From the NCBI RefSeq assembly GCF_001921215.1, contig NZ_MSIF01000008.1, positions 186,001 to 250,000 of the forward strand: DNA of 64,000 nucleotides, read 5' to 3'. Within the stretch, counting starts at the first letter, position 1. Every line of letters starts with the position of its first letter. The position numbers and the translations under genes are program-made. Origin of the DNA: Actinophytocola xinjiangensis. Its GTDB lineage: Bacteria; Actinomycetota; Actinomycetes; Mycobacteriales; Pseudonocardiaceae. The notes beneath the pieces were generated by a model. It saw only the letters and a list, made by a program, of their open reading frames with translations, did not search any database and was not told the origin of the DNA. Positions 3,843-60,326 of the stretch are shown here, one piece after another.

Positions 3843-6317
3843 TCACGTCGCGGCGCGCACCACGACCTCGGTGAGCGAGAGCGGGTTGGTCGCCGACTCC
3901 AACTGGACCCGGACGTAGCGGCCGGTGGCGCCGTCGAGGTCGACGACGGTCGGCCGCCCGGCGGTGCCCGGCTGGTGGATCGCGGTGGCGCCGGGGGTGG
4001 CGAGGGCCTCGGTCAACGAGTCGGTGGTGATCGGGGTGGGCGAGACGATCAGCCAGTAGTCGGCGAGCCGCTCGGTGCAGCAGTCGGTGCGGTTCCAGAT
4101 CTCCACCGTGTCCACCGGGTACTGCCCGGCGAGGTCGACCTGCCACCACGCCTGGTGGGACGGTTCGGCGGTGTGCGACGAGGACTGGTCGACCAGGTAG
4201 TCGCCGGCGGTGTTGCCGTCCACCGCCCGTTGCGGCACCCCGTCCCACGCGGTGCTGATCTGGCTGGCCGGTTTGCCGGCGGCGACGTTGGGCGCCACGA
4301 CCTCGGTCAGCGCGCTCGCCGTCACGGGCCGGCCGTCGCCGGTCAACGCGGCGGTGAGGGCGACCGGGCCGAGGTCCGCGCCGGCGGGCACGGTGACCGG
4401 GATCCGCGCGGTGCTCGACTGTCCGGGGGCGAGGTCGGCGAACGCCACGGCCTGCCCGGTGGTCCAGCCGGCCGGGGCGCGCACGCCGATCGTGCCGGTG
4501 ACCGGCGTGCGCGAGGTGTTGGTCACGTGCACCGCGAGGGCGGTGGTGGCACCGGTTTCCAGCTGGGCGGGGGCCTGGACCCAGCCGGCCACCCGGTCGG
4601 CGCGGGCGACCAGCAGCGCGCCGGTGCTCAGCCCGAGGGCCTGGCCCTGGTGGGCCGGGTCGGCCAGGGTGATCGTGACCGGGGTGACCTGGTTGGCCGG
4701 CACGGTGAACGGGCCGACGGTCCCGCCGGTCAGCTCGGCGCCGGTGACGATTCGGTGCCGGCCGCCGACCTCGACGCGGTAGCGGGTGGCCGGATCGGTG
4801 GCGGTGCCGGTCGCGGCGACCACGACCCGCCCGCCCCGGTCGCTGAGCAGGTGGCCGGTCTGGCGCACGACGGTGCGCCGCGTGCTGGGGTAGCTGCCGG
4901 TGTCGGCGTAGCTGTAGCCCTGTTCGAGTTCGGCCAGCGGCCAGGCGTCGCTGCCGCGCGCCGTGCCGGCGGGGATGACCCGCAGCTCACCGCCCAGCGA
5001 CACCCGCAGCACCGGCAGGACCGGGTCGTGCGGCCGGTCGGGCAGGTCGATCACCAGGTCGTCGCCGGACCTCCGCCAGTCGAGCGCGCCCCGGCGCCCG
5101 TCCTCGGTGACGCCCCGCACGCGGGTCGCGAGGCCGGGCAGGACCAGCTCGCCGGACTCCGGCCACTCGGTGACGTGCAGGAACAGGTCGGTGCCGTTGA
5201 CCGTGACCTCGCCCCACGGCTGCCCGCCGAAGCGGGTGGCCGACGCGCCGAGCACGGCGCCGGGGTGACGGCCCAGCCAGTCGCCGATGCCGCGCAGCAC
5301 GTCGGCCTCGAACTCCACGACCGAGCCGTCGCCGCGCGGGCCGATGTTGAGCAGGTAGTTGCCGCCCCGGGCGCGGACGCTGGTCAGGCCGACGACGAGG
5401 TCGCGGATCTTGCCGGGCAGGTCGTCGCGGACCTGCCAGCTGCGGTAGCCCCAGGTCTCGTGGTAGACCGAGGCCGGTGTCTGCCAGGTGCCCTCCAGCG
5501 GCACGGAGGGAATCTCGTTGTCCCCCAACGTGCGGAAGTCACCGGCGTTGTTCCACACGCGACTGTTGACGGCCGCGCGCGGCTGGAGCTCGCGGACGAT
5601 GTCGACGAACTTCTCGCTCTGCGCCACGGTCGGCGACGACATGTCGAACCAGACCTCGGAGATCGGGCCGTAGTTGGTCATCAGCTCGCGCAGCTGGCCC
5701 TCGATGACCGGTTCCATCGACGGCGGGATCGGGTTGTTGTTGCCGCCGTCGAACTCGTGGCCCTGGTGCCAGTCGACGAGGGAGAAGTAGAAGCCGAAGC
5801 CCAGGCCCTGCCGGCGGCACTCGTCGGCGAGGCGTTTGAGCGGGTCGCGGCCGTAGGCGGTGGCGTCGACGACGTCGTAGTCGGTGGTGGCGGTGTCGAA
5901 CATGGAGAAGCCGTCGTGGTGCTTGCTGGTGATCACGACGTAGCGCATGCCGGCGCGTTTGGCGAGGCCGCAGATCGCGGCGGGGTCGAACCGGTCGGGT
6001 TGGAACCGGCTGGCCACCTCGCGGTAGTCGGCCTCGTCGATGTTGGCCCACATCTGGATCTGCTCGCTGTAACCGCTGGTCACCGGCTTGTCCTGCCAGA
6101 CGCCGCCGAGTTCGGAGTAGATGCCCCAGTGGATGAACATGCCGAACTGGAGGCGCTGCCAGGCGGCCAGGTCGGGGTCGGCGCTGAGTTCGACGGTGCC
6201 GGGGACGCCGCGAACCCGCTTGCCGGGGGGTTCGGTCGAGCCGGTCGCGGATGCCGGTGCGGCGAGGGTGGACAACACCATCAGGAAGGTGAGCAGGGCA
6301 CCGATCCGTGCGCGCAT
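3843..6317 (-). CDS. Secreted alpha-L-fucosidase (GH29) with C-terminal discoidin domain
   Basis: About 824-residue exported glycoside hydrolase that releases fucose from glycans. A Sec signal peptide (MRARIGALLTFLMVLSTLAAPASA) is followed by the GH29 barrel, with the family motifs FGMFIHWGIYSELGGVW and SEVWFD, whose Asp is the expected nucleophile. After the catalytic and beta domains come an NPCBM/Ig-like stretch and a C-terminal F5/8-type discoidin carbohydrate-binding module (about the last 140 residues). The ATG at 6317 has GAGAGG 8 nt upstream; a GTG at 6326 would overlap that ribosome site. Tail-to-tail with LysR. It implies use of host or plant fucosylated glycans. Confidence 0.92.
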   Translation of the reverse strand: MRARIGALLTFLMVLSTLAAPASATGSTEPPGKRVRGVPGTVELSADPDLAAWQRLQFGMFIHWGIYSELGGVWQDKPVTSGYSEQIQMWANIDEADYREVASRFQPDRFDPAAICGLAKRAGMRYVVITSKHHDGFSMFDTATTDYDVVDATAYGRDPLKRLADECRRQGLGFGFYFSLVDWHQGHEFDGGNNNPIPPSMEPVIEGQLRELMTNYGPISEVWFDMSSPTVAQSEKFVDIVRELQPRAAVNSRVWNNAGDFRTLGDNEIPSVPLEGTWQTPASVYHETWGYRSWQVRDDLPGKIRDLVVGLTSVRARGGNYLLNIGPRGDGSVVEFEADVLRGIGDWLGRHPGAVLGASATRFGGQPWGEVTVNGTDLFLHVTEWPESGELVLPGLATRVRGVTEDGRRGALDWRRSGDDLVIDLPDRPHDPVLPVLRVSLGGELRVIPAGTARGSDAWPLAELEQGYSYADTGSYPSTRRTVVRQTGHLLSDRGGRVVVAATGTATDPATRYRVEVGGRHRIVTGAELTGGTVGPFTVPANQVTPVTITLADPAHQGQALGLSTGALLVARADRVAGWVQAPAQLETGATTALAVHVTNTSRTPVTGTIGVRAPAGWTTGQAVAFADLAPGQSSTARIPVTVPAGADLGPVALTAALTGDGRPVTASALTEVVAPNVAAGKPASQISTAWDGVPQRAVDGNTAGDYLVDQSSSHTAEPSHQAWWQVDLAGQYPVDTVEIWNRTDCCTERLADYWLIVSPTPITTDSLTEALATPGATAIHQPGTAGRPTVVDLDGATGRYVRVQLESATNPLSLTEVVVRAAT

Positions 6318-6441
6318 CGCCAGCACCTCTCATCGTCGAGCGATCAGACCTCCGATCAAAGCAGGCGAACCTGGGTCAGACAAGCACCAGTTGCAGGAAG
6401 TTGTGGTTAAACGTCGGATCATTTGTCGCCGGCCGCAGGCC

Positions 6442-7461
6442 CTATCGGGAGAAGTACTCAGCCAGCGCGGCGAAGGCAGCCTTGGGTTCCCACGGCATGT
6501 CCGGATAGGTCTCGCCGAGCGCGCCGTCGAGAACCTTCACCACTCCCAGACTGGCCAGATCCAGGTCACGGCGCGGTTCGTCCGGCCGGTGCGGGAAGTT
6601 GTACAGGGCGAACAGGTAGACGAAGACACTGTCGACCCCCTCGGAGTCGAAGATCTCCAGAAGGTCACGAAGATAGTCGGCCTGCCCGTCCTCGTCCCGC
6701 TCGTAGTCCCCGATCAGCGCGACCGGCTCCCCCGCGTCGTCGTACTCGACGATCTCCATACTGCGCGGCGCGACCTCGGGGGCGCCGCGCCAGGTGGCGG
6801 TCCCGAACCCGGTGATGGCCACCGGTTTCCCCTGTCCGACCAGCGTCCGCACGCCCTCCCGGAACTGCCCCGCGACCTCCGCCGACCGGATGAGTTCGAC
6901 CGAGAGGTAGTCGAAGGGGGTCCAGTCGACCCGTTCCAGCGGGACGCAGGCATAGGTGAGCTTTCCTCGGAAGTGCTCCCGAACCGTGGCGATGGCGTCG
7001 GCGAGAAAGGCATTGAGCCGGGCGCTGGCGTCGGCGACGCGTTCCCCGAGCTTCTCAGGCTGGCCGAGCAGATGGTCCAGCCGTGCCGTGATGTCGTCGC
7101 CCGGCAGGAATCCCCTGGCCATCAGCGTCAGTTCCACGCCGGTGACGAACACGACCTCGCCGCCGGCCTGCCGGACGCGTTCCGCCCGGCGCGCGCAGTC
7201 GGCGAACAGCGCCACCATCTCCGCCGGCGCCAGATCCAGCGGGTAGGGCGAGAACCACACCTCCAGGCCGAGCTCGACCGCGGCACGAGCGGCGAGTTCC
7301 AGCCGATCGGGGTCGCCGCCGACGATGTGCACGGCGTCGCAGTGCAGGTCGTCGCGGATGATCTCCAGCTCCCGCCGGACGAGGGTCGGGGTGAACAGGT
7401 CACGTGAGTTCTGGCCGTGGCGGACGAAGCCGGTGTCGTAGGCGATCCCGTTGGTGCGCAT
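6442..7461 (-). CDS. TIM-barrel-like hypothetical protein, divergent from TetR
   Basis: 339-residue cytoplasmic protein without a signal peptide. Alternating strands and helices (GIAYDTGF, CDAVHIVGGD, LEVWFSPYPLD, GEVVFVTGVELTLM, LTYACVPLERVDW, KPVAITGFGT, VALIGDY, DSVFVYLFALYNF) read like a glycoside-hydrolase-type (beta/alpha)8 barrel, with acidic residues at strand ends (GVELT, ITGFG). Relatives in actinomycetes are often labelled 'abortive infection protein', a label not supported by anything visible here. ATG 7461 was chosen because a TATGGT hexamer ends 7 nt upstream and the TetR-type operator ends just beyond it; an in-frame ATG at 7473 falls inside the operator. The catalytic function is unknown. 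Confidence 0.75.
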   Translation of the reverse strand: MRTNGIAYDTGFVRHGQNSRDLFTPTLVRRELEIIRDDLHCDAVHIVGGDPDRLELAARAAVELGLEVWFSPYPLDLAPAEMVALFADCARRAERVRQAGGEVVFVTGVELTLMARGFLPGDDITARLDHLLGQPEKLGERVADASARLNAFLADAIATVREHFRGKLTYACVPLERVDWTPFDYLSVELIRSAEVAGQFREGVRTLVGQGKPVAITGFGTATWRGAPEVAPRSMEIVEYDDAGEPVALIGDYERDEDGQADYLRDLLEIFDSEGVDSVFVYLFALYNFPHRPDEPRRDLDLASLGVVKVLDGALGETYPDMPWEPKAAFAALAEYFSR

Positions 7462-7472
7462 GCCGGCGACCA

Positions 7473-7510
7473 TAACATGCGTGCACGCAAGTTTGCGCAC
7501 ACGCATGTTA
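7473..7510. promoter_or_regulatory. TetR-type operator (18-bp arms, 2-bp centre)
   Basis: Left arm TAACATGCGTGCACGCAA (7473-7490) and right arm 7493-7510 are reverse complements at 16 of 18 positions, separated by GT. The palindrome fills most of the 59-bp gap between the divergent TIM-barrel gene and the TetR gene. -10-like hexamers sit at both edges (TATGGT on the minus strand, rc of 7469-7474; TAGAGT on the plus strand, 7509-7514). Binding would therefore block both promoters. Confidence 0.85.
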
Positions 7511-7520
7511 GAGTCCGGGG

Positions 7521-8108
7521 ATGACGGGACTGCGCGAACGGAAGAAGCAGGCGACGCGGGTGGCGTTGCGGGAGGCGGCCCTGCGGCTCGCACTGGAGCG
7601 CGGGGTGGACAACGTTCGGGTGGACGACATCGCCGCGGCCGCCGGGGTTTCGCCGCGGACGTACAACAACTACTTCTCGAGTCGCGAGGAGGCGATCGTC
7701 GCCGGGGTGACGGCAGAGCGGGAGGCTCGGGTGGCCGAGATCGTCGCCCGCCGAGCGGGCGAGGTTGGCCTGGCGGAGGCCGTGGTCGAGGCGGTTGTCG
7801 GCGTGTACACGGGTGATTCCCGGCCGGAGGTGCTGTCGCTGATCACCGGGTCGCTGCGGGAGGGGTTCGTGGCGTCGGCCGGCGGGATCGAAGGGGGACT
7901 GGCCAGGGTTGTCGGGGAGCGGGTCGGGGACGCCCGGGTGGGGCGGGTGTTGGCGGCGGGGGTCGTGGGAGCCGTTCGGGTCGCGCTCGATGAGTGGGTC
8001 GAGGTTCGGGGCGGGGGGTTGGTTGTGGTGTCCGGGTCGCTGGAGGGGTTGATTCGGAGGGCTGTCGGGGTGCTGGTTCCCGCCCTGGAGGCCGCCGAGG
8101 CGGGTTAG
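7521..8108 (+). CDS. TetR/AcrR-family transcriptional repressor
   Basis: 195-residue regulator. The N-terminal HTH domain reads TRVALREAALRLALERG, then VDDIAAAAGVSPRTYNNYFSSREEAI, the TetR recognition helix and signature. A ligand-binding helical domain follows. The ATG at 7521 follows a TAGAGT hexamer by 6 nt and lacks a Shine-Dalgarno sequence, so it is probably leaderless. It almost certainly binds the palindrome at 7473-7510, controlling itself and the divergent TIM-barrel gene. A role over the downstream MFS exporter is possible, but that gene has its own different operator-like sites. Confidence 0.92.
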   Translation: MTGLRERKKQATRVALREAALRLALERGVDNVRVDDIAAAAGVSPRTYNNYFSSREEAIVAGVTAEREARVAEIVARRAGEVGLAEAVVEAVVGVYTGDSRPEVLSLITGSLREGFVASAGGIEGGLARVVGERVGDARVGRVLAAGVVGAVRVALDEWVEVRGGGLVVVSGSLEGLIRRAVGVLVPALEAAEAG

Positions 8109-48558: not shown

Positions 48559-50793
48559 CTACGATCCCAGGGAATCACCCCGAACCAGCCCGGCGGCCAC
48601 CACGAGATTCCGCAACGCCGACTCCACCTGCGCATACTCCCGAGTCTTGAGCCCACAGTCCGGATTCACCCACAACCGCTCCGCCGGCACCACCGCCACC
48701 GCCCTGGTCAGCAACTCGACGATCTCCTCGACGTCCGGCACCCGAGGCGAGTGGATGTCATACACCCCAGGCCCCATCCCCCGCCCGAACGACCGCAGGT
48801 CGTCCAGGATCGCCATCGTCGACCGGGCGGCCTCGATGGTGGTCACGTCGGCGTCCAGGGCGTCGATCGCCTCGATCACCTCGCCGAACTCCGAGTAGCA
48901 CAGGTGGGTGTGGATCTGCGTCGACGGGCCGGCACCGCCGGTCGCCAGCCGGAACGCGCCGACCGACCAGTCCACATAGGACGGCTGGTCGACGGCCCTC
49001 GGCGGCAGCAGCTCACGCAGCGCCGGCTCGTCGACCTGGATGATGCCGATCCCGGCCGCCTCCAGGTCCGCGACCTCGTCGCGCAGGGCCAGTGCGACCT
49101 GGGTCGCGGTGTCAGCCAGCGGCTGGTCGTCACGGACGAACGACCAGGCCAGGATGGTCACCGGGCCGGTGAGCATGCCCTTGACCGGCTTGACGCTCAG
49201 GCTCTGGGCGTAGGAACTCCACGCCACGGTCATCGGTTCGCGGCGGGAGACGTCACCGTGGATGATCGGCGGACGCACGCACCGCGAGCCGTAGGACTGC
49301 ACCCAGCCGAGGTCGGTGGACGCGACCCCGTCGAGGAAGTCGGCGAAGTACTGGACCATGTCGTTGCGTTCCGGCTCGCCGTGCACGAGCACGTCCAGGC
49401 CGATGTCCTCCTGCAACGCGATCACCCGCGCGATCTCCTCGCGCATCCTGGCCAGGTAGCCGCGCTCGTCGAGGGTGCCCTCGCGCAGGCCGGCCCGGGC
49501 GTTGCGGAGGCCGGCGGTCTGCGGGAACGAACCGATGGTCGTCGTCGCCAGCGGTGGCAGGTCCAGGCGGCGTTGTTGGGCCGGTGCGCGCTCGGCGTAG
49601 GGCGCGCGGACGCGGTCGGCGGGGGTGAGCGCGGCGATCCTGGCGCGCACCCGCTCGTCGCGGTGCGGGGCCGGCGGGTCAGTGGCCGCGCCGGTGGCGA
49701 CGCCCGCACGCAGGGCGTGGCCGATGGCCACGACCTCGGCGACCTTCTGCCTGGCGAACGCGAGCCGGGAGCGCACCCCCGGCTCAAGGCGGGTCTCGGC
49801 GTCGAGGTCGTAGGGCACGTGCAGCAGCGTCGAGGAGGTCGAGACGGCGACCTCGCCGGCCGAGCCGAGCACGGTCGCGACCGTGGCCAGCGCGGCCCGC
49901 TGGTCGGTGCGCCACACGTTGCGCCCGTCGACGACACCGGCGACGACGGTCTTGTCCCGCAGCGCCGGCACCGTGGCATGAGCCGTGTCCGGCGCGCTGA
50001 CCAGGTCCAGGGCGATCGCCTCCACCGGGCTGGCGGCCAGGACCGGCAGGGCGGGGCCGAGGTTCCCGTAGTAGCCGGTCACCAGCAGTTTCGGCCGGTC
50101 GGGCGCCGCGCCGAGCCGGTCGTAGGCGTGGCGCAGGGCCGCGAGGTCGGCGTCGGTGCGGTCGGCGGCGAACGCGGGCTCGTCGAGCTGGACCCACGGC
50201 GCGCCCTGCGCCCGCAGTGCGGCCAGCAACTCGGTGTAGACGGCGAGCAGGTCGTCGAGCAGGTCCAGGGGCGTGAAGCCGGCCTGGTCGGACTTGGACA
50301 GCAGCAGGAAGGTCACCGGGCCGAGCAGGACCGGGCGGGTGGTGATCCCCAGGTCGGCGGCCTCGCGGAACTCGGCGACGGGCTTGTCACCGGCCAGGCG
50401 GAAAGCGGTTTCCTGGTGGAGCTCCGGGACCAGGTAGTGGTAGTTGGTGTCGAACCACTTGGTCATCTCCAGGGCCGGCGCGCCGTCCCTGCCGCGTGCC
50501 GCCGCGAAGTAGGTGTCCAGTGTGGACAAGCCGAGGTCGTGGAATCGTCGGGGGATGGCGCCGAACAGCTCGGCGGTGTCCAGTACCTGGTCGTAGAAGG
50601 AGAAGGTGTTGCCGGGCACCGAGTCCAGGCCGGCGTCGCGCAGTTCGGTCCAGGTCGCGGCGCGCAGCTCACGGGCCGTGCGCCGCAGGGTCGCCTCGTC
50701 GGCCCGGCCGGACCAGTAGCGTTCGACGGCGCGTTTGAGTTCGCGGCGCGGGCCGATCCTGGGGTAGCCGAGCACGGTCGTACCGATGGTCAC
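48559..50793 (-). CDS. metE: Cobalamin-independent methionine synthase
   Basis: 744 residues, full length. It transfers the methyl group of 5-methyltetrahydropteroyl-triglutamate to homocysteine using zinc. N-terminal [27 protein letters not shown] and the C-terminal catalytic region ([71 protein letters not shown]) include the His and two Cys residues expected to bind zinc. GTG 50793 has AGGAG 9 nt upstream. The 5' leader carries a cobalamin riboswitch, so expression should fall when B12 is available. Confidence 0.96.
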
Positions 50794-50891: not shown

Positions 50892-50912
50892 GCGCGCGCC
50901 GGCGGCGCGCGC
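50892..50912 (-). terminator. GC hairpin after the metE riboswitch
   Basis: Perfect 9-bp stem GCGCGCGCC / GGCGCGCGC with a 3-nt loop, starting 1 nt after the riboswitch P1 helix. It is placed where an expression platform is expected. Without a U-tract it may terminate weakly or act with Rho. Confidence 0.6.
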
Positions 50913-50913
50913 A

Positions 50914-51089
50914 CCGACGGCAGGTCTTCGGACTCGTGGGCACACCTCTCGCGCCTACCGGCCGTCGCTTCCCGGACTCGCGTCCAGTGCTTCGTTGACG
51001 GCTTTCGTTCCCACTCACCGCTGCGGGGCAGTCCCGGACTCACACCGGGTTCCCTCTTGCCTCACCCGCGGGAGCGGGTGAACCGTCGG
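50914..51089 (-). ncRNA. Cobalamin riboswitch of metE
   Basis: Read on the minus strand, the P1 helix is CCGACGG (51089-51083) paired with CCGTCGG (50920-50914). Between them are GGGAACCCGGTG, GAGTCCGGGACTGCCCC, the GCAGCGGTGA core and the 3' B12 box GAGTCCGAAGACCTGCC. These match the conserved elements of the adenosylcobalamin-type riboswitch in order and spacing. It lies about 120 nt upstream of the metE start and is followed by a strong hairpin. Confidence 0.93.
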
Positions 51090-51159
51090 CCCGTCCAGCC
51101 TACCCCCTGGCGCCGGTGACTCCCTGGAACGGGTCGAGCGCACCGCGTCCGAGAACAGA

Positions 51160-51260: not shown

Positions 51261-52181
51261 GTGATCGGCCAGGAAATGGTCACCGAGTTGTACGACTGCG
51301 ATGTTTTCGACGCCAGTGGCGAGAAAATCGGCTCCGTCAAACAGGTCTGGGTCGATGACCGTTCCGGCGTCCCGATCTGGGCGTCCGTCCACGGCGGACT
51401 GTTCGGTATGCGGGAGTCGTTCGTCCCGTTGCAGAGCGCGAACCTGCGTGAACACCAGGTGCGGGTCGCCGTCGACAAGGAACGCATCAGGAACTCGCCG
51501 AAGGTCGACGCGAGCAACGACCACATCAGCGACGAGGAGCAGAGCCTGCTGCTCCGCTACTACGGCTTCGGCCCCCAGCGCACCAGCTCGGAGGGCATGT
51601 CCGGCAGGACCGCCGCCGGTGAACGGGACGCCAGGGCCGGCCAGTCGGCCGCGGCGAGCACCGACGCCTCGGCCGCCAGCGCGAAATCCGCCAACGCGAA
51701 ATCCGCCGGCGCCAAGTCCGACGGCGCCATGGCCGACAGCGCGAAGAACGCCTCGGGGAACGCGCGGGCGGACGCCGCCGCGTCCGGTGGGCATCACCGC
51801 CTGAACGGGGACGCGATGACCCGTTCGGAGGAGCACCTGCGCGTGCACACCGAACGCGTGGAGACCGGCAAGGTCCGCCTGGTGAAGCACGTCGTCACCG
51901 AGGAGCAGCAGGTCACCGTACCGGTGTCACACGAAGAGGTTCGGGTGGTCCGCGAACCGATCACGGCCAGTAACGCCGACAAGGCGATGAGCGGCGCCGA
52001 CCTGGCCGATGCCGAGCACGAGGTGATCCTGCACGCCGAGAAGCCGGTCGTGGACAAGGAAACCGTGCCCGTCGAGCGGATCAGGCTGGACACCGAGGAG
52101 ATCACCGAGAACGAGACGGTCACCGGCCAGGTCCGCAAGGAAGTCGTGGACGTGCAGGACGACCGCAAGCAGGGCCGCTAG
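51261..52181 (+). CDS. PRC-barrel and DUF2382 (YsnF/AvaK) stress-type protein
   Basis: 306 residues. The PRC-barrel is N-terminal (about 5-95: YDCDVFDASGEKIGSVKQVWVDDRSGVPIWASV). An Ala/Ser/Lys low-complexity linker follows (about 110-180), and then DUF2382 (about 185-295: SEEHLRVHTERVETGKVRLVKHVVTEEQQVTVPVSHEEVRVVREPI). It is a soluble cytoplasmic protein. GTG 51261 has GGAGGG 8 nt upstream; the in-frame ATG 24 codons earlier would translate the leader. Such proteins are often stress-induced in actinobacteria. The stop codon overlaps that of the convergent ECF/NTF2 gene (CTAG). Confidence 0.9.
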   Translation: MIGQEMVTELYDCDVFDASGEKIGSVKQVWVDDRSGVPIWASVHGGLFGMRESFVPLQSANLREHQVRVAVDKERIRNSPKVDASNDHISDEEQSLLLRYYGFGPQRTSSEGMSGRTAAGERDARAGQSAAASTDASAASAKSANAKSAGAKSDGAMADSAKNASGNARADAAASGGHHRLNGDAMTRSEEHLRVHTERVETGKVRLVKHVVTEEQQVTVPVSHEEVRVVREPITASNADKAMSGADLADAEHEVILHAEKPVVDKETVPVERIRLDTEEITENETVTGQVRKEVVDVQDDRKQGR

Positions 52182-53410
52182 GCCTGACCGGTGTCGAACC
52201 GGCTGACCTTGCCGTCCTCGACGGTGAACCGCCACCGGGTGCGCATGTCGCCCCAGGTCGAGTTGGTGAACGTCGCGACCAGCGAGAGGCCACCGTCCTG
52301 TTCGGACTCGACGGTCATCCTCCCGTCGGCGAAGAAGATCTCCTTGTCCACCCAGGAGTCGAGGTCACGCTCGGTGCCGTCGTCGGACATGGTGGCACCG
52401 GGCGCCAGCAGGGCGTCGAAGGCCGTGCGGTCGCCGGCGTTGATCGCCGCCACGAACGCGCGCACGGTCGGGTCGGTGGGATCCATCGGTACCTCCTGGT
52501 CGGCTGGTCGACCCCCAGCATTCCGCCCGAGGGCGCCGCCCGCACGGCGGAACCGGTCGACCGGCGCCGCGAAGGTGGGGGTGGCGCCGTAGGAGGCCCT
52601 GCGGGAGGCACGGCGCAGGGTGGCGAGCACCGCCGGCCCGATGACCAGGATCGCGACGGTGTTGGTGATCGCGCGCCCGGTGTCCCACCCGGCCGTCGAG
52701 GTGAGCAGGGTGAACACGACGAACCGGTGGAGGTTGTCCCCGACGGGAGCACCGGGCACGTAGGAGATGTGACCGTCGTGGTAGGACACCTCGGCGTCGG
52801 TGATGAACGGCCAGAACCACAGGTTCATCAGGAACCCGAACAGGTAGGCCACCACGATGCCGTAGCCGGCGAGCATCGCGATCTCGGCCTTCCCGGTGAC
52901 CCTGCGCGGCAGCAGCCCCGCCCCCATCCCGATCCACGCCGAGGCCAACATCTGGAACGGCAACCACGGCCCCACCCCGGCGGTCAACAGGGCGGAGGCG
53001 AACAACGAGGTACACCCGAGCACGAACCCGAACCCGGCGCCGAACACCCGCCCGGACAGCACGAGCAGGAAGAACACCGTCTCGATCCCGGCCGTCCCCG
53101 CCCCCAGTGGCCGCAGGGCGGCGTTGACGGCCGAGAGCACCCCCACCATCGCCAACGCCTTCGAGTCCAGCCCGCCCTCGGACAGCTCGGCCAACACGAT
53201 GACGATGAGCACCGGCAGGATCCCGATGAACACGAACGGCGCGTCCGGCCCGTGCTGCATCGACTGCGGCTCCACCCGGACCAGCAGGGGCCAGACGAAC
53301 ATCATCAACCCGGCCACCGACGCCAACCCGAGCACGACGGCCGACCGGGGCCCCAGCCGCACGGCCTGGTCGGCCCGCCCCCACCGCCGCCGCCCACCGA
53401 CGGCGGTCAT
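52178..53410 (-). CDS. cbrT: ECF transporter S component (probable cobalamin), open frame fused to an NTF2-like domain
   Basis: 410 codons without a stop. Residues 1-about 285 form a membrane S component (VVLGLASVAGLMMFVW, PVLIVIVLAELSEG, AMVGVLSAVNAALRPLG, FFLLVLSGRVFGAGFGFVLG, GVVAYLFGFLMNLWFWPF-type helices). The last 102 residues are a SnoaL/NTF2-like domain (PTDPTVRAFVAAINAGDRTAFDALLAPGATM). The start overlaps the ATPase stop by ATGA. Substrate assignment to cobalamin rests on the operon's B12 riboswitch and on the known CbrT/U/V systems. The NTF2 part also has its own AGGAGGT and ATG at 52486, so a separate protein may be made from the same frame. Confidence 0.8.
   Translation of the reverse strand: MTAVGGRRRWGRADQAVRLGPRSAVVLGLASVAGLMMFVWPLLVRVEPQSMQHGPDAPFVFIGILPVLIVIVLAELSEGGLDSKALAMVGVLSAVNAALRPLGAGTAGIETVFFLLVLSGRVFGAGFGFVLGCTSLFASALLTAGVGPWLPFQMLASAWIGMGAGLLPRRVTGKAEIAMLAGYGIVVAYLFGFLMNLWFWPFITDAEVSYHDGHISYVPGAPVGDNLHRFVVFTLLTSTAGWDTGRAITNTVAILVIGPAVLATLRRASRRASYGATPTFAAPVDRFRRAGGALGRNAGGRPADQEVPMDPTDPTVRAFVAAINAGDRTAFDALLAPGATMSDDGTERDLDSWVDKEIFFADGRMTVESEQDGGLSLVATFTNSTWGDMRTRWRFTVEDGKVSRFDTGQA
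52486..52499 (-). promoter_or_regulatory. Internal ribosome site and ATG of the NTF2-like domain
   Basis: On the minus strand AGGAGGT lies 5 nt before ATG 52486, in frame with the upstream S-component reading frame. It would produce a free 102-residue NTF2-like protein (52178-52486) in addition to, or instead of, the fusion. Confidence 0.65.
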
Positions 53411-55008
53411 CGGGCGGGTTCCCGCAGGGCCGCGCGGACGTCGTCGACGGTCAGCCAGGGGGCGCCGAGGATCTTGGTCGTCTGGGGGGCGAAGGCGGGG
53501 GAACCGGCGATGATCTCGGCCGTGGGGCCGGTGGCGACGATCTCGCCCTCGGCCATGATGGCCACGTGGTCGGCGACCGTGGCCACGAACTCGACGTCGT
53601 GGGTGGCGACCACCACGGCGCGGCCCTGGGACGTGAGCGCGGTGATGATCCGCGCCAGGGTGGCCTTGGCGGTGTAGTCCAGGCCCCGTGTCGGCTCGTC
53701 CAGGAGGAGGACCCCGGGGGTGGCGGACAGTTGGACCGCCAGGACCAGCGCCAGGCGTTGGCCCTCGGACAGGTCGCGGGGGTGCGCCCGGGAGTCGATG
53801 CCGGGGGTCAGCCGGTCCAGCAGGGCACGGCAGGTTCCTGGCGACGCCTCGGACTCGGTGTCGGCGGCCCGGCACTCGTCGGCGACGGTGTCGAGGTAGA
53901 GCAGGTCGCTGGCGGTCTGCGGGACGAGTCCGACCAGGGCCCTTGCCTCGGCCGACGGGAGATCCTTCGGGTCCTTGCCGGCCACCTGGACGGTGCCGCC
54001 CTGGCGGGGACCGGAACCCTGCAACGCCCACAGCAGCGAGGACTTGCCCGAACCGTTGCGGCCCATCATCGCCAGGACCGTTCCACCGTGCAGTTCCACG
54101 TCCACCCCGCGTACGGCGACCGTCGGGCCGTAGCGGACGACGACGCCGGACGCGGTCAGCCGGGGGGACGGCGCGAGCGGCGGGCGCGGCGGGGGCTCGG
54201 CCAGCGCGGCCAGCAGGGACGGCGCGCGGCGGCGGGCGTCGCGGACGGTCATGGGTAACGGGGTCCAGCCCGCCAACCGTCCCAGGGAGACGATCGGTGG
54301 GGTGATGGGCATGTCCCGCAGTACCTCCGGGGGCGGGCCGTCCACCACGGAACCGTCGCCGGGGGTGTACAGCAGGCGGTCGGCGAACGGGATCACGCGT
54401 TCCATCCGGTGTTCGGCGAGGATCACGGTCGTGCCGAGGTCCTCGACCAGCCGGGCCAGGGTCGCCAGGACGTCCTCGGCGGCGGTCGGGTCCAGCGCGG
54501 AGGTCGGCTCGTCGAGGACCAGGACGCGCGGGTGGGTGGTGAGCACCGAGCCGATCGCCACCCGCTGCTGCTGCCCGCCGGAGAGGGCGCGCAGCGGACG
54601 GCGGCGCAACTCGGCGATCCCGAGCAGGTCCAGGGTCTCCTCGACGCGGCGGCGCATCACCTGCGCGGGCAGGCCGAGCTGCTCCATGCCGTAGGCCAGT
54701 TCCTCCTCGACGGTGTCGGTGACGAACCCGGCCAGCGGGTCCTGGCCGACCAGGCCGACGAGGTGGGCGAACTCCCTGGGCGGCCGCGACCGCGTCGTCA
54801 CCCCGTCGACCGACACCTCGCCGTCGAGGTGGCCGCCGGTGAAGTGCGGGACCAGCCCGTTGAGCGTGCCCAGCAGGGTCGACTTGCCCGCCCCGGTGCG
54901 ACCGGCCAGCAGCACCAGCTCACCGTCGCCGATGGACAGTGAGATGTCGTCGAGTACCGGCGACTCGCGGCCGTGGTACCAGAAGCTCACGTGGTCCAGT
55001 TCGATCAT
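53407..55008 (-). CDS. cbrV: ECF transporter fused double ATPase (A1-A2)
   Basis: 533 residues with two nucleotide-binding domains. NBD1 has Walker A GRTGAGKST, signature LSGGQQQR and Walker B VLVLDEPTSALDP. NBD2 has Walker A GRNGSGKSS, a signature reduced to LSEGQRLAL, Walker B VLLLDEPTRGLDY and VVVATHD. This is the energy module of a dedicated (group I) ECF importer, as in CbrV-type proteins. It overlaps the T component before it and the S component after it by ATGA, fixing stoichiometric expression. Confidence 0.93.
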   Translation of the reverse strand: MIELDHVSFWYHGRESPVLDDISLSIGDGELVLLAGRTGAGKSTLLGTLNGLVPHFTGGHLDGEVSVDGVTTRSRPPREFAHLVGLVGQDPLAGFVTDTVEEELAYGMEQLGLPAQVMRRRVEETLDLLGIAELRRRPLRALSGGQQQRVAIGSVLTTHPRVLVLDEPTSALDPTAAEDVLATLARLVEDLGTTVILAEHRMERVIPFADRLLYTPGDGSVVDGPPPEVLRDMPITPPIVSLGRLAGWTPLPMTVRDARRRAPSLLAALAEPPPRPPLAPSPRLTASGVVVRYGPTVAVRGVDVELHGGTVLAMMGRNGSGKSSLLWALQGSGPRQGGTVQVAGKDPKDLPSAEARALVGLVPQTASDLLYLDTVADECRAADTESEASPGTCRALLDRLTPGIDSRAHPRDLSEGQRLALVLAVQLSATPGVLLLDEPTRGLDYTAKATLARIITALTSQGRAVVVATHDVEFVATVADHVAIMAEGEIVATGPTAEIIAGSPAFAPQTTKILGAPWLTVDDVRAALREPAR

Positions 55009-56096
55009 GCGGTCACCGGTTCCGGGATCGGGGACAGGACGGCCGGCACCAGGCCGACGGCCGCGCCCAGCAGCGGCGGCCAGGACAGCAACGGCCACGA
55101 CAAAACGACCAGCGACGGGTTGAGGTTCGTCGGGTTGACGCCGGAGGTGGCGAAGAACGCGACGGCCACCGCCACGCCGCTGGTCGCCACCACGATCTCC
55201 GGCGCCCGCCAGCGGTCGGGCCGGTAGCGGGTCCGGTGCACCCGCCGGCCGGCGAGCCGGAACCCGACGAGCGCCACCACCAGCCCGGCGACCAGGACCG
55301 GGGCGGCGAGGAACCGGGGCGTCGAGCCGTCCAGGGTGGCGTAGACGCCGACGCACACCCCGATCAGCCCGACGATCATCAGCGCGCCGGTGGCGAGCCG
55401 GGCGCGCGCGGCGACCCGGCCGGCGCGGCCGTACCCGCGCGAGTCCATCGACGCGGCCAGCCGCAGCGACCGGTCCAGCGCGTCCTCCAGGACCGGGATG
55501 ATGATCGCGTGCAGTGCCCGGAACCGCCGGCCGGTCGCGCCGCCGCGCAGCGTGCGGGCCCGCCGCACCCGCAGCACGCTCTCCGCCAGCTGCGGGAACA
55601 CCGACAGCGCGACGACCACCGCCGTGCCGACCTCGTAGAGCGCCGGCGGCATCGCCTTGAGCAGCCGTTTCGGGTTGGCCAGGGCGTTCGCCGCGCCCAG
55701 GCACACGACCATCGTCGCCAGCCGAAGGCCGTCGTAGAGCCCGCCGAGCAGCGACTCGGCCGACACGTCGCCCAACAGCCGGATGCCCGCCGCCCACGCC
55801 GGCAGCGGGATCTCCGGCAGCGCCAGGATGATCGTCGAGCCCTCAGCGCCGCCGAACACGAACCGGAACAACACCCGCATGGCGACGATGAACGCGCCGA
55901 GGTACAGGTAGAGCCGGAACGCCATGGCCCACGGCGCGTCCGCCCGCCGGGCGATGACCACGTAGCACGCGACGGCGAGGATGGTGAGCAGCAGCCACGG
56001 GTTCGTGGTGCGGCTGGCCGCCACCGCCAGCCCCAGGGCCCACACCCACCACGCGCCGGGGTGCAGGTCCCGGGGCAGGAAGTACCGAGCGAGCAC
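55005..56096 (-). CDS. cbrU: ECF transporter transmembrane T component
   Basis: 363 residues. PRDLHPGAWWVWALGLAVAASRTTNPWLLL begins the T fold; the coupling helix motif is AASMDSRGYGR (the family's A-R-G signature). Two extra hydrophobic segments at the C-terminus bring it above the usual ~260. GTG 56096 overlaps the preceding stop (TAGTG). It links the two ATPase halves to the S component. Confidence 0.9.
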   Translation of the reverse strand: MLARYFLPRDLHPGAWWVWALGLAVAASRTTNPWLLLTILAVACYVVIARRADAPWAMAFRLYLYLGAFIVAMRVLFRFVFGGAEGSTIILALPEIPLPAWAAGIRLLGDVSAESLLGGLYDGLRLATMVVCLGAANALANPKRLLKAMPPALYEVGTAVVVALSVFPQLAESVLRVRRARTLRGGATGRRFRALHAIIIPVLEDALDRSLRLAASMDSRGYGRAGRVAARARLATGALMIVGLIGVCVGVYATLDGSTPRFLAAPVLVAGLVVALVGFRLAGRRVHRTRYRPDRWRAPEIVVATSGVAVAVAFFATSGVNPTNLNPSLVVLSWPLLSWPPLLGAAVGLVPAVLSPIPEPVTA

Positions 56097-57004
56097 TACG
56101 CTTCCCGGGACCGCTTGCGGCGCCTGGCGGTCAGCCACGTCGCGAGTCCCAACAGGACGACCGCTCCCCCGGCCGCCCACGGCGCGTAGTCGCTGGCGCC
56201 GGACTGCTCGCGGACGACCTCGGTGACGTCGCGGGCCTTCTCCCCGCCGGTGAACGCCACGTTGCCCGACGGGTCGTCCGCCTCGGCCCGGTCCGGCGAG
56301 CCGGTGCGGGGTTTGGGCGGCGGCAACGCGTCCCGGCCGGGGGCGGTCGAGGTCTCGGTGGATCCACCGGATCCGCCACCGGCGCCGTTCTGGGCGCCGG
56401 CCGCCCCCGGTTGCCGGGCGTTGGGGTCGGCGGTGGTGGGTTCCGGCTCGTCGGGCGCGTCGCACGGCTGGCCGGTGGTGCCCGGTCGCACGGCGGCGAT
56501 GCGGGGCGTGGGGTTGGTGTCGGCGGTGGCGTTGAGCGAGAACGACCAGCCCTCGAACCCGCCGGGCACGAAGTCCCGGTTCTTCACGCCCCACTGGGAG
56601 TACTCCCACTGGCAGTTGTTGCCGGCGTGCCAGTACGACCAGTACGCCGACGCCGGCGGGGTGTCCCGGCAGGCCTCCCGGTAGCCGTCGTCGCCGGCGA
56701 CCGGGATCTCCTCCACGGCCGAGGGCCGGTTCTCGATCCGGCAGATGAAACCCTCGCCCCAGCGCACGACGCCCTCGATCTGGAAACCCGCGCCCTTCAC
56801 CGCGTCCAGCCCGGTGCCGCGCGTCGGCCGCGGGTCGCACCGCACGATCGTGGTGCCGCCCAGCTGCTGGAAGTCCACCACCACGGTCACCCCGGTGGCG
56901 TTGCGGCAGTAGCCGGGGTATCCCTTCGAGTGGTCGACGGCCCGCGCGACAGGGGCGAGGGTGGCCGTCAACGCGGCCACCGCCAGCACCACGAGCGTCC
57001 TCAT
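56096..57004 (-). CDS. SCO2322-type secreted beta-domain protein, membrane anchored
   Basis: 302 residues. Signal peptide MRTLVVLAVAALTATLAPVARA, then a ~150-residue beta domain rich in Cys and Trp (CRNATGVTVVVDFQQLGG, AYWSYWHAGNNCQWEYSQWG, VPGGFEGWSFSLN). A Pro/Gly linker and a C-terminal anchor follow (YAPWAAGGAVVLLGLATWLTARRRKRS). The same domain, without an anchor, is encoded by the preceding gene. The W-Y-x-x-G...pG-x-x-x-GW pattern recalls DUF4430, the beta domain of transcobalamin and intrinsic factor. It overlaps the T component and probably presents ligand to the importer; this is inference. Confidence 0.82.
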   Translation of the reverse strand: MRTLVVLAVAALTATLAPVARAVDHSKGYPGYCRNATGVTVVVDFQQLGGTTIVRCDPRPTRGTGLDAVKGAGFQIEGVVRWGEGFICRIENRPSAVEEIPVAGDDGYREACRDTPPASAYWSYWHAGNNCQWEYSQWGVKNRDFVPGGFEGWSFSLNATADTNPTPRIAAVRPGTTGQPCDAPDEPEPTTADPNARQPGAAGAQNGAGGGSGGSTETSTAPGRDALPPPKPRTGSPDRAEADDPSGNVAFTGGEKARDVTEVVREQSGASDYAPWAAGGAVVLLGLATWLTARRRKRSREA

Positions 57005-57588
57005 CGGACAGTGAGGGTCGCCGTCGGGTACGCCGGGTTGGTCGGGGTCACGCCGGGCGGCGGGTTGGTGGTCGCGGTCCGGTTCAGCGAGAACGACCAG
57101 CCCTCGAACCCGCCGGGGACGACGGTGCGGTTGAGCGCGCCGTAGCTGCTGTAGGTCCAGGTGGTGCCGGAACCGTCGGCGTGCCAGTAGGACCAGTACG
57201 CCTCGGCCGGCGGCGTCAGCACGCACGCCTCCTGGTAGGTGGGGTTGCTGGTCCGGGGGATCGCCTCGGTGGCCGAGGGCCGGTTGTTCAGCCGGCACAC
57301 GAAACCCAGGCCCCACTGGGCGGTGCCGGCCACCGGGATCCCGGCGTCCTGGAGTGCCTGGATGCCGGTCCGGTCGGTGCCGGGGGCGGCGTTGGGCGAG
57401 CAGCGGGTGATCGTCGGCGCGGCCGTGCCGCCGTTGCCGTCCAGTTCCTGGAAGTCGATCACGACGGTCACGCCGGTGAGCGCGTCGTCACCCGTGCAGA
57501 TCCCGTCGTAGCCGGCCGCCGAGGCGCTCGGCGGCGCGACCAGGACGGCACCGGCGGTCAGGACGAGCGCGGCCAGTGTTCTTCTCAT
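57001..57588 (-). CDS. SCO2322-type secreted beta-domain protein, free form
   Basis: 195 residues. Signal peptide MRRTLAALVLTAGAVLVAPPSASAA is followed by the same beta domain as the next gene: GVTVVIDFQELDGNGG, GLGFVCRLNNRPSATEAIP, AYWSYWHADGSGTTWTYSSYG, VPGGFEGWSFSLNR. Four Cys residues may form disulfides. There is no C-terminal anchor, so the protein is released or bound by a partner. It overlaps both neighbours by ATGA. Paralogue of 56096-57004 by tandem duplication. Confidence 0.83.
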   Translation of the reverse strand: MRRTLAALVLTAGAVLVAPPSASAAGYDGICTGDDALTGVTVVIDFQELDGNGGTAAPTITRCSPNAAPGTDRTGIQALQDAGIPVAGTAQWGLGFVCRLNNRPSATEAIPRTSNPTYQEACVLTPPAEAYWSYWHADGSGTTWTYSSYGALNRTVVPGGFEGWSFSLNRTATTNPPPGVTPTNPAYPTATLTVR

Positions 57589-60050
57589 GCGGTGGGAACC
57601 CCTTTGATTCTCGAGTGGAGACGCCGTGCGCCGAACCCGATGCCGGCGGCCAGCAGTGAACCGAGTGCGATGAGACCGATGAGCTGCCAGGTCGCCGGCC
57701 CGGACGTGCCGTCCTGGGCCGCCGGGGCCGGTTCCCGGGGGTCGGCGGCGGCGACCAGCGGCAGGCGCACGGCCGGGACGACCGGGGACCGCTCGGCGCT
57801 GGTCCAGGACCGGCCGGCGATGCCGGGGGCCGCCTGGGCACTGGTGGTGAGGTCGGCCAGTCCCCCGTCGGCGCGCAGCAGCGCGGCGAGCCCACGGGCG
57901 GTGGCGCTGACGTCGAGACCGGCGGACTGGCGTCCGGCCGCCACCCCGGCGCTCGCCACGACGTCCACCGCCCGGCCGGCACGCACCAGGCCGGTGGCGT
58001 CGGTCGCGTCGGTCAGGGCGAGCGCCGCGCGCGCCACGGCGTCCGCGCGCCCCGGCGTCCAGTCCGCCGGCGCGGCGTTGCCCGGCGGGGTGTCGCCCCG
58101 GAGGCTCACCGTCGCCGGCCGGGAACGTTTCCCGTTGAGTGCCTCGACCGCCGCGGCCGTCGCGGCCAGGTCCCCGGTCTCACAGGACCCGGTGCCCAGC
58201 CGTGCCGGGAACGTGCCGTCGGCGCACCGGCTGTCCAGCAGCGCCGCCACGGAGTCCTCTGTGGACTCCGAGCCGGCGGTCGCGGCGAGCATCGCCCAGG
58301 TGTGCCGGCGGACCGAGTCGCCGGCGTCGCCGAACTCGCCGGTGTCGGTGTACCGGCCGTCGGATCCGCGCAGCGCGGCCAGGTCCGCGTCGAGCGCGCC
58401 GACGACCGGATGGACGTCCTCGTCGAGGAACCCGGCCACGATCCGCAGCTTCGCCAGCGGCTCGGCGTAGGCCGCCGGGGCCTTCTCGTACGGGACGCCA
58501 TTGGCGTAGGCGGCGACCGAGTCCTCGTGCAGCAGGAACCGGGAGGCGCGGACCGCCGCCTGGGGCTGCTCGCCCAGGGTGCGCAGGGCGAGGACGACGT
58601 CGGCGGTGGTCTCGTAGTCGGTGTAGGTGCGGCCCTGTTCGGTCACCTCGACGTGGTCGCCGTCGACCAGCGTCCCCGCGAGGTAGCGGCCCAGCCGCCC
58701 GGCCGGCGTCGCCGAACCCGGCGTCGCCGCGCTCACCGGCGGGGTCACCATGACCCGGTCACCGGGGCCGGGTGGTGGGGCGGGAGTGCCGGCCTTGCCG
58801 CTGACCGGCGGCGGCGGTGGCGGCGGGGGTTTCGGGGGCTTCTTGCCGCCGCCGGGCGGTGGTGGGCCGGTGGGAAGGTCGCCCTGGGTCAGGTCGTGGA
58901 AGCCGACCCCGGACAGGGCGAGCGAGGCCTGGGCGCTGGCCCGGATCCAGGTGTCGATGCCGACGATGCCGTTGGTGCGCGCCGCCTGGTACGAGGCGGG
59001 GTCGTAGGCGATGGCACCGACGTGGCCGGCCAGCGCCGTCCCGGCGTCGGCATCCGTGGCCTGGGCGGAGAGCAGGTAGTCGATCCCCTTGGCGACCTGG
59101 GTGTCCGCGCCGCCGGCGTCGGTGAGCGCCTGGACTATCAGGCCGGTGCTGTTGGTGTTGGGGGCCTCGGTGCCCACGCCGCCGCCCCAGCCGCCGCCGG
59201 CGGACTGGTTCGCCGTCAACCAGGCGACGGTCCGCGAGATCGGCGTGTCGAGGTTCGCCGCGCCGGCCTCCCGGGCGGCGAGCATCGCCGAGAGCGCGAG
59301 CCCGGTGGCGTCCCCGTCCGGCGAGGACTGGCCGAACGCCTTGCCCTCGTCACAGGTCGAGAGCCTGGATCCGTTGGGGGTGACGTGGTCGCCGGTCTCG
59401 TCGGTGGGGACGTAGCCGAAGAAGATCCGGAAGTAGCCCTCCGAGCACTGCTGGGTCAGCATCGTGTCGATGGCGAGCTGGTCGTTGGCCCCCACACCGG
59501 CCAGGCCGATGACGCCCAGCGCCTGGCCGAACATGTTGGCGTTGTTGCTGACGTAGTCGGCCAGGTCGGGGGTCTTGGCGTAGTCGCTGACCCTCCCCCG
59601 GTCCGGGCCGGACCGCCTGATGGTGCCCAGGGTCTCGGCGACCAGGTCGTGCCCGCCGAAGTTCCTCGGGTCCCTGCCGGCGATCTCGGCGGCCACCAGG
59701 AGTTTGGCGGTGGCCCCGCCGACGATGATGTTCTCGAAACCCTGGCCGGGAACCAGGCCGTCCCAGGTGAAGTAGTCGCTGGCGTGCCGCTCGAGGTAGG
59801 ACACGACCGGTGCGGCCAGGGCGGCGTCACCCGAGGCGTGCAGCGCGTAGAGCGTGTCGACCATCAGCCCGTGGTCGGGCAGCACACCGCCGAGCGGGTT
59901 GCGCAGGGTGCCGTCCGGGCCGAGCTGGTTGGCCAGCCACTGCGAGTTGGTCTTCGCCGCCGGACGGCTCGCCGCGGTGGCGACGGGAGCGGTGGCGACG
60001 GGAGCGGTGAACAGGCCAACGGCCAACAGACTCGCCAACAGGTACCGCAC
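57585..60050 (-). CDS. Secreted, membrane-anchored alpha/alpha-barrel (prenyltransferase/squalene oxidase-repeat) protein
   Basis: 821 residues. Signal peptide (YLLASLLAVGLFTAPVATA), then an alpha/alpha-toroid repeat domain (about 35-395: NSQWLANQLGPDGTLRNPLGGVLPDHGLMVDTLYAL, NSTGLIVQALTDAGG). A Pro/Gly linker with PPKPPPPPPPP follows, a second helical-toroid domain (about 470-720), and a C-terminal membrane helix (LIGLIALGSLLAAGIGFGARRL) with a basic tail. The fold type is shared with the alpha domain of transcobalamin and intrinsic factor. GTG 60050 lies 9 nt after GGGGGA, which is part of a hairpin. First gene of the B12-riboswitch operon. Confidence 0.86.
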   Translation of the reverse strand: MRYLLASLLAVGLFTAPVATAPVATAASRPAAKTNSQWLANQLGPDGTLRNPLGGVLPDHGLMVDTLYALHASGDAALAAPVVSYLERHASDYFTWDGLVPGQGFENIIVGGATAKLLVAAEIAGRDPRNFGGHDLVAETLGTIRRSGPDRGRVSDYAKTPDLADYVSNNANMFGQALGVIGLAGVGANDQLAIDTMLTQQCSEGYFRIFFGYVPTDETGDHVTPNGSRLSTCDEGKAFGQSSPDGDATGLALSAMLAAREAGAANLDTPISRTVAWLTANQSAGGGWGGGVGTEAPNTNSTGLIVQALTDAGGADTQVAKGIDYLLSAQATDADAGTALAGHVGAIAYDPASYQAARTNGIVGIDTWIRASAQASLALSGVGFHDLTQGDLPTGPPPPGGGKKPPKPPPPPPPPVSGKAGTPAPPPGPGDRVMVTPPVSAATPGSATPAGRLGRYLAGTLVDGDHVEVTEQGRTYTDYETTADVVLALRTLGEQPQAAVRASRFLLHEDSVAAYANGVPYEKAPAAYAEPLAKLRIVAGFLDEDVHPVVGALDADLAALRGSDGRYTDTGEFGDAGDSVRRHTWAMLAATAGSESTEDSVAALLDSRCADGTFPARLGTGSCETGDLAATAAAVEALNGKRSRPATVSLRGDTPPGNAAPADWTPGRADAVARAALALTDATDATGLVRAGRAVDVVASAGVAAGRQSAGLDVSATARGLAALLRADGGLADLTTSAQAAPGIAGRSWTSAERSPVVPAVRLPLVAAADPREPAPAAQDGTSGPATWQLIGLIALGSLLAAGIGFGARRLHSRIKGVPTA

Positions 60051-60059
60051 GGCTGTTCA

Positions 60060-60079
60060 TCCCCCTGTGATCCGGGGGA
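60060..60079 (-). promoter_or_regulatory. Ribosome-site-sequestering hairpin
   Basis: On the minus strand TCCCCC (60079-60074) can pair with GGGGGA (60065-60060), the ribosome site of the alpha-barrel gene. It sits between the riboswitch and the start codon, where a translational expression platform is expected. Confidence 0.65.
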
Positions 60080-60137
60080 GAGACCGGTGCGTGCGCGCCG
60101 ATGCGTCAACCCCTGTTCTCGCGACAGTGGTATGGAA

Positions 60138-60238
60138 TGACCTGCCCGGTCCGGTAACCCGACTTGCCACCACGACGGTGACCCACGGTTGCGCGACAGT
60201 GCCGGACTTCGACCGGCTTCCCCATCACGGGCAGCGAC
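60138..60238 (-). ncRNA. Cobalamin riboswitch (short, AdoCbl-variant-like) of the ECF operon
   Basis: On the minus strand the P1 helix is CTGCCCG (60234-60228) with CGGGCAG (60148-60142). Between them lie GGGGAAGCCGGT, GAAGTCCGGCACTG, CGCGCAACCGTG and the B12 box-like AGTCGGGTTACCGG. These match the cobalamin riboswitch core in order. At about 100 nt it is much shorter than the metE switch, as in the AdoCbl-variant class. One core position differs (CGCGC for CCCGC). It ends about 90 nt before the alpha-barrel start codon. Confidence 0.85.
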
Positions 60239-60326
60239 TATCCAGTTGTCAATCTGGCCAAACGAGCCGAGCGTACCAGCGCGTCAGGTGAGCTCCGCTA
60301 ACGATGTGATCCCGAACGCCTGCCGT

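Follow-up and report, generated by a model that had tools for sequence, protein, structure and literature searches.

What purpose would be served by an operon in which two families of secreted proteins accompany an energy-coupling factor (ECF) importer behind a cobalamin riboswitch? The question is raised by a locus of Actinophytocola xinjiangensis within the 64,000-nucleotide stretch analysed here (contig NZ_MSIF01000008.1, positions 186,001 to 250,000; hereafter the window), which is part of a 9.5 Mb genome. On the minus strand the operon runs from a short cobalamin riboswitch through the genes for a tandem alpha/alpha-barrel protein, two beta-domain proteins (beta1 and beta2), EcfT, a double EcfA and EcfS, with neighbouring genes overlapping by ATGA and, in the case of beta2 and EcfT, by TAGTG. 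An initial annotation had described this overlapping arrangement and interpreted it as a surface system for scavenging vitamin B12. Re-reading the genes and the RF00174 score confirmed the arrangement, and we consider it probable that the operon encodes a B12-regulated system for surface capture of corrinoids and their import through an ECF transporter, in which a corrinoid would be clamped by the surface proteins and handed over to the importer.

The riboswitch and the operon proteins

The leader of the operon carries the short cobalamin riboswitch at 60132..60280 (-), with its core as modelled at 60138-60238, which was recognised by the Rfam model RF00174 as well as by our own covariance model, R1. 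With cmscan, RF00174 scores 35.6 bits (gathering score 31.5, E 2.2e-5), so that the covariance scan of the 60138-60238 region bears out the riboswitch first read there by inspection, in a short form in which 14 bases replace 66 positions of the Rfam model. R1, built from an alignment of 42 short riboswitches of the operon family, reaches 81.5 bits at 60138-60238, the window sequence being one of its 42 training rows. Within this alignment both-sided changes occur in 9 of 17 predicted pairs, and the helices between the 5' and 3' flanks are longer than those of reshuffled partners (mean 7.9 versus 5.7, 0/500, kinship uncorrected).

The first gene, 57585..60050 (-), encodes a secreted protein of 821 aa composed of barrel 1, a proline-rich linker, barrel 2 and a C-terminal membrane helix. 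AlphaFold models confirmed the alpha/alpha barrels, joined by the linker at low confidence and followed by a helix at the position of a membrane anchor; the anchored barrel protein initially described stands with regard to fold and anchor-position helix, with a tandem of two barrels in place of a single one. In the 76-locus set described below, an LPxTG/LAxTG-like motif with a hydrophobic tail stands at the end of 55 of the 89 barrel ORFs, therefore many barrels are likely sortase-anchored, and low-complexity stalks precede the sortase-like motif; the barrel protein of the window ends in a plain hydrophobic helix. It is followed by beta1, a secreted SCO2322-like beta-domain protein (57001..57588 (-), 195 aa), and by beta2 (56096..57004 (-), 302 aa), which combines an SCO2322-like beta domain with a C-terminal transmembrane tail that weakly matches LAxTG sortase-type models, below cut-off. 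The beta family is further marked by the conserved motifs GVTVxxDF, C-R-I, AYWSYW and EGWSF (31 aligned rows). The SCO2321 and SCO2322 names hold insofar as the proteins are sequence relatives of these NCBIfam families, all scores being below the curated cut-offs: the barrel protein obtains 81.1 of the 300 bits needed for SCO2321 (NF053823), and beta1 and beta2 obtain 30.1 and 26.9 of 85 bits for SCO2322 (NF040672). Neither family name carries a stated function.

For the importer, EcfT (55005..56096 (-), 363 aa) passes the cut-off of Pfam CbiQ (PF02361) with 44.7 bits against 25. EcfA (53407..55008 (-)) is a double ATPase, a single 533-aa protein with two ABC domains in which ABC_tran (PF00005) matches two stretches (166 bits); it scores about 268 bits with the ECF ATPase models TIGR04520/04521, below their cut-offs of 315/330. 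The S component (52500..53410 (-), about 303 aa), a membrane subunit predicted to bind the substrate, was assigned from a sub-threshold Pfam match (ECF-ribofla_trS, 22.4 bits, cut-off 26.7) together with a family alignment of 26 rows, in which mean column identity is 63%.

Recurrence in other actinobacteria

Relatives of beta1 are present in 88 of 297 genomes of the host's family, and in the class the beta profile has matches in 168 of 394 genomes, a good number of the weak ones being confined to the YW motif. For comparison, 60 regions from the family and 77 loci from Streptomyces, Micromonospora, Salinispora, Kribbella, Nocardioides, Actinomadura and others were fetched; one of the latter (L144, a second view of the contig of L143) was excluded from the R1 and EcfT counts, resulting in a 76-locus set. 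In the 60-locus set each of the 52 EcfT genes is accompanied by A and S and has a beta gene upstream, and in the 76-locus set, in which contig ends cut some loci, A and a member of the S family adjoin 64 of 72 EcfT genes, with an upstream beta gene for 71 of 72. The gene order varies: the group to which the window belongs has riboswitch-barrel-beta-beta-T-A-S, many Streptomyces have riboswitch-beta-T-A-S with the barrel behind, and many Micromonospora carry two riboswitched barrel-beta units. In three loci (L085, L086 and L068) the fetched region contains beta and barrel genes, and neither EcfT nor A nor S was found in it; they are capture modules apart from an importer, which in L085 and L086 follow a riboswitch.

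The survey of homologous operons showed that the riboswitch recurs with the genes. An R1 match lies at most 8 kb upstream on the same strand of 68 of 72 EcfT genes in the 76-locus set and 48 of 52 in the family set, two counts that are not independent because loci of both sets share genomes (L103/L075, L106/L073, L135/L076, L110/L070, L118/L072, L124/L079, L172/L044 and L178/L047). Across 136 loci, 185 of 187 R1 matches above 51 bits run within 600 bases into a barrel (124), beta (52), fused (8) or EcfT (1) gene; these 187 are what remains of 229 matches (88 + 141) after setting aside 41 that score under 51 bits together with the strong match of the window itself. Chance placement of the riboswitches, which we considered as an explanation, is ruled out by these positions and by the conservation of gene order and riboswitch in relatives. 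Since R1 was trained on the operon family, nine loci of the 76-locus set were rechecked with Rfam's own model, and RF00174 reached its gathering score beside barrel or beta genes in eight of them. Furthermore, RF00174 scans of 58 beta-holding genomes (best matches only; 50 rescanned; G274, G296, G269, G300, G207, G182 and G315 left out) gave matches at many of the operons; in several genomes the operon's riboswitch was missed at E 1e-3, and R1 finds some of these (e.g., L044, L056, L059), recoveries to be read with its training on the family's own riboswitches in mind.

The R1 type of riboswitch is also found outside the barrel/beta/ECF system. An R1 scan of 41 genomes led us to fetch 20 contexts without a known barrel, and profile searches gave no beta, barrel or S gene in any of them. 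Pfam was run on ten first genes: nine lie behind R1 matches of 59 to 83 bits and comprise six PF01497 (BtuF/FecB-class), two CobN and one CbiM, and the tenth (L242) sits behind a long-form RF00174 match not listed by R1; the other contexts were judged by eye or left unassigned (L236, L237, L241). Because these first genes are of B12 type, the R1-type riboswitch belongs to B12 regulation. In the literature, an Rfam survey of S. lividans, in the part available, gives two cobalamin riboswitches, before cbiM and cobD, and none at the homologous operon (PMC8079986), and nine B12 riboswitches are cited for S. coelicolor in the accessible text of another report (PMC4991794).

Fusions and the DUF4430 parallel

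Animal transcobalamin and intrinsic factor consist of an alpha6/alpha6 barrel and a DUF4430 beta domain. DUF4430 (PF14478) is given as the C-terminal domain of vertebrate transcobalamins in the available part of PMC4350170. Two lines of evidence bear on how far the bacterial genes resemble this architecture, the first being natural fusions. Beta and barrel form a single ORF in five genomes, namely Crossiella sp. S99.2 and a congener (L073/L106, L074), Allokutzneria (L075/L103), Actinoalloteichus (L076/L135) and Actinomadura hibisca (L112), counted as five genomes and not as eight ORFs because the two sets share genomes. In two further genomes of different genera, found among the 20 DUF4430 regions described below, S component and barrel share one reading frame (L224:1417-3453 (-), L228:1422-3395 (-)); the hydrophobic stretch seen by eye between the two parts could place the fused barrel outside the cell. 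From these natural fusions, the beta, barrel and S modules belong together. In L064, the ORF 5481-7190 (+) runs from the terminal part of a barrel into a complete beta1, signal peptide included; it was excluded from the fusion count, being unflagged by the fusion profile and missing the barrel start, and may be a broken or misassembled gene.

The second line is the exchange of the beta family. Within the phylum, DUF4430 has matches in 51 of 296 genomes, the host genome not among them, and in other actinobacterial classes it takes the place of the beta protein before A genes and homologous S genes: 17 of the 20 DUF4430 regions fetched have both A and S by profile, and a barrel is present in L212, L214, L215, L217, L224, L228 and L229. 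Like the operon of the window, the DUF4430-ECF-barrel operons (L214, L215, L217, L224, L228 and L212) place a beta-type domain before A and S and have homologous S and barrel proteins. They differ from it in having a true DUF4430 by Pfam, a long-form riboswitch, a T gene found only in L214, L217 and L224, and, in two cases, the S-barrel fusion; the barrel lies behind S in all but L212, as in many Streptomyces, and comes first in L212, as in the window. Of the ten DUF4430 loci scanned, five have RF00174 upstream (L214, L215, L217, L224 and L228, all with a barrel); cmscan did not find it at L212, which has a barrel, or at four barrel-less loci; L219 has an AdoCbl-II match. A hidden Markov model of 16 DUF4430-type S proteins, themselves found with the SCO2322-type profile, recovers 117/117 SCO2322-type S proteins and nothing else among 17240 ORFs (E up to 1), and a profile built from five barrels of the DUF4430 type finds 156 of 166 barrels without any other match. 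Since the profiles cross-recover, the importer and barrel families stay the same whichever beta family accompanies them. In one region, L229 (G489:C1:3652500-3666500), an SCO2322-type beta, T, A, S and barrel are present with a weak DUF4430 match just behind, and in L224 an ORF between the riboswitch and the DUF4430 gene (6881-8023 (-)) combines a weak DUF4430 match with a calcium-binding repeat.

It is possible, and we propose it tentatively, that these proteins are a bacterial counterpart of intrinsic factor and transcobalamin in their barrel-plus-beta architecture, in which separate, fused or S-fused surface proteins would capture corrinoid for an ECF importer as a dedicated extracellular binding module. 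The animal proteins have one alpha/alpha barrel and one beta domain, as does the bacterial set, and the bacterial DUF4430 profile A5 weakly matches transcobalamin-1 (E 0.094); in the bacteria the chains are separate or fused beta-first, the beta domain is of SCO2322 type instead of DUF4430, the nearest folds listed for the barrels are terpene cyclases, and cobalamin is a putative ligand. We regard the system as a variant of the ECF transporter and claim no membership of the transcobalamin family for it.

Several observations weigh against the capture-and-import reading or its transcobalamin parallel. Concerning the riboswitch, the window leader, folded as a single sequence, does not surpass its shuffles (z 0.31), the L109 leader falls below the RF00174 threshold, and eight EcfT genes have no upstream R1 match; four of them (L052, L105, L125, L162) lie close to the locus end, and L064, L080, L081 and L112 have ECF genes without an R1 match and with leaders inside the locus, cmscan finding no cobalamin riboswitch in the L081 leader. 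Some riboswitched beta-T-A-S operons have no barrel in the fetched region (e.g., L087, L088, L090, L091, L177, L179), which indicates that the barrel is dispensable beside the importer. The fusion order, beta-barrel, is the reverse of that in animal transcobalamin. Among the matches listed, both barrel models come closest to the solved folds of class II terpene cyclases and sugar enzymes, and the 50 VIA-align rows listed contain no transcobalamin. No PF14478 match was obtained in the window proteins (Pfam E up to 0.1) or in the 31 aligned beta rows (E up to 1), and the beta and DUF4430 profiles show weak similarity (E 0.006 and 0.019, probability 6% and 2.5%). This leaves the transcobalamin fold types initially claimed for the operon in part: the alpha/alpha barrel stands by AlphaFold, and the DUF4430 assignment does not by Pfam, nor does transcobalamin appear among the matches listed.

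Direct sequence routes to transcobalamin were tried and rejected from both sides. For beta, a phmmer search with beta1 and the beta profile, and for the barrel, phmmer and profile searches, gave no transcobalamin or intrinsic factor chain among the matches listed at E up to 10, and Pfam on the 31 beta domains returned two chance-level matches. The hhalign comparison of beta with DUF4430 is colinear, with a score of 17.9 over 72 columns (probability 2.5%); 0 of 100 column shuffles reach this score (maximum 17.76), and windows of the barrel profile reach 15.4. Judged from these alignments, the comparison is at most suggestive of homology between the SCO2322-type beta and DUF4430 families.

Function, ligand and host

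How might the parts work together? At low intracellular cobalamin the short riboswitch would leave expression on, a direction taken from its family. The barrel and beta proteins would be exported and kept at the surface through membrane or sortase anchoring, where the alpha/alpha barrel and the beta domain may enclose an extracellular corrinoid between them as intrinsic factor and transcobalamin do, here from separate chains, and then pass it to the S component, with the ECF module (T and the double ATPase) driving import. Descriptions of ECF importers assign vitamin binding to the membrane S component itself, and these transporters are generally considered to depend on that component alone. 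A conserved surface capture module, S-fused in one lineage, would alter this picture if the proposal is correct; it would also show how thick-walled bacteria gather a large and scarce vitamin, provide a testable function for two gene families without a stated role in many actinobacteria, and bear on the origin of the animal transcobalamin architecture.

Two described systems are comparable in part. The first is the ECF-type vitamin B12 importer, represented by ECF-CbrT of Lactobacillus (PMC5997447, as far as available) and by CbrVUT (so named in PMC6722938, likewise in part). It shares with the window a T subunit, ATPases, an S component and a B12-linked genetic context, whereas the importer of the window is accompanied by surface barrel and beta proteins and has an S family without a sequence match to solved chains. 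The Bacteroides lipoproteins BtuG and BtuH capture B12 at the surface together with BtuB (PMC10404256, available in part) and resemble the proposed system in catching B12 for a dedicated importer, but they are other proteins and serve an outer-membrane TonB-dependent transporter. In the open-access literature, SCO2321/SCO2322 or bacterial DUF4430 were not tied to B12 among the matches listed, and the sole paper with any of SCO2321-2324 concerns a transdermal delivery peptide; subscription papers lay largely outside this search, and a prior description outside the searched literature is possible.

With regard to the ligand, B12-regulated import of another compound, such as cobinamide or another incomplete corrinoid, dimethylbenzimidazole or a cobalt chelate bound by barrel and beta, is unlikely yet has several points in its favour. 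B12 riboswitches also govern cobalt transport and cobalamin biosynthesis genes in actinobacteria (PMC8079986, available part), and CbiM and CobN stand behind R1-type riboswitches elsewhere. In addition, the substrate of the S component is not fixed by homology, because no solved relative was found by sequence (no PDB sequence matched the S profile A6 up to E 10), and a host BtuC-type permease, read by eye, lies behind another short riboswitch (L240), so that a second B12 importer might be redundant. Against this, the DUF4430 of animal B12 carriers holds the beta position in sister operons, and the host has no CobN match, so precursors of de novo synthesis would be less useful to it. The host genome encodes MetH and NrdJ, and it may lack the aerobic B12 synthesis route, for which CobN alone was searched and gave no match in the genome; together this suggests that the host uses B12 and may need to scavenge it.

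The fold neighbours of the barrels raise a second and quite improbable explanation, in which they would be secreted enzymes (terpene-cyclase-like or sugar-active toroids) or structural proteins of the wall, e.g., for envelope remodelling under B12 limitation. VIA-align lists terpene cyclases, GH76, epimerases and others for the barrel models, and the barrel profile search matched squalene-hopene cyclases, with complement C4 and alpha-2-macroglobulin also listed. However, the last two illustrate that the alpha/alpha fold is common to many proteins of differing function, an unrelated enzyme leaves the fusions of the barrel to beta or the S component unexplained, and the barrel is the gene into which 124 of the 187 strong riboswitch matches lead directly. 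That barrel and beta are adhesins or receptors gripping B12-loaded proteins or particles, with riboswitch and ECF importer real, would fit the surface anchoring and the low-complexity stalks ahead of the sortase-like motif, but it is very remote given the S-barrel fusion, which suggests that a ligand is passed to the membrane subunit.

Returning to corrinoid capture and import, the B12-scavenging interpretation of the initial annotation is retained for its B12-controlled surface capture and ECF import, which the recurrent riboswitch, the fusions and the DUF4430 exchange support; its transcobalamin-like clamp stays a hypothesis, and Pfam gives no match that links the SCO2322 domain to DUF4430.

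Beyond the operon, the only other cobalamin match in the window lies nearby at 50902-51102 (-) (96.9 bits), before metE (48559-50793), so that metE stands behind the second cobalamin riboswitch of the host; a ribonucleotide reductase stands behind a third. Long-form RF00174 matches also occur within the fetched regions L043, L046-L049 and L058. Downstream of the S component, and with no stop between the two, its frame continues into a SnoaL-like stretch (52178..52486 (-); SnoaL_2 26.4 bits, cut-off 27), which has an ATG of its own and an AGGAGGT resembling a Shine-Dalgarno sequence. No homologue of this stretch (E up to 1e-5) was found in the ORFs of the 137 loci L043-L179, and therefore it lies outside the conserved system: a role for it as a tail of the system was rejected, and the operon no longer extends to 52178 as initially drawn. 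Finally, the host genome contains a second barrel gene about 130 kb away (L082, G000:C71:107000-122000, at 6939 (-)) with a short B12 riboswitch of its own (RF00174, 35.3 bits); neither beta nor ECF genes were found next to it.

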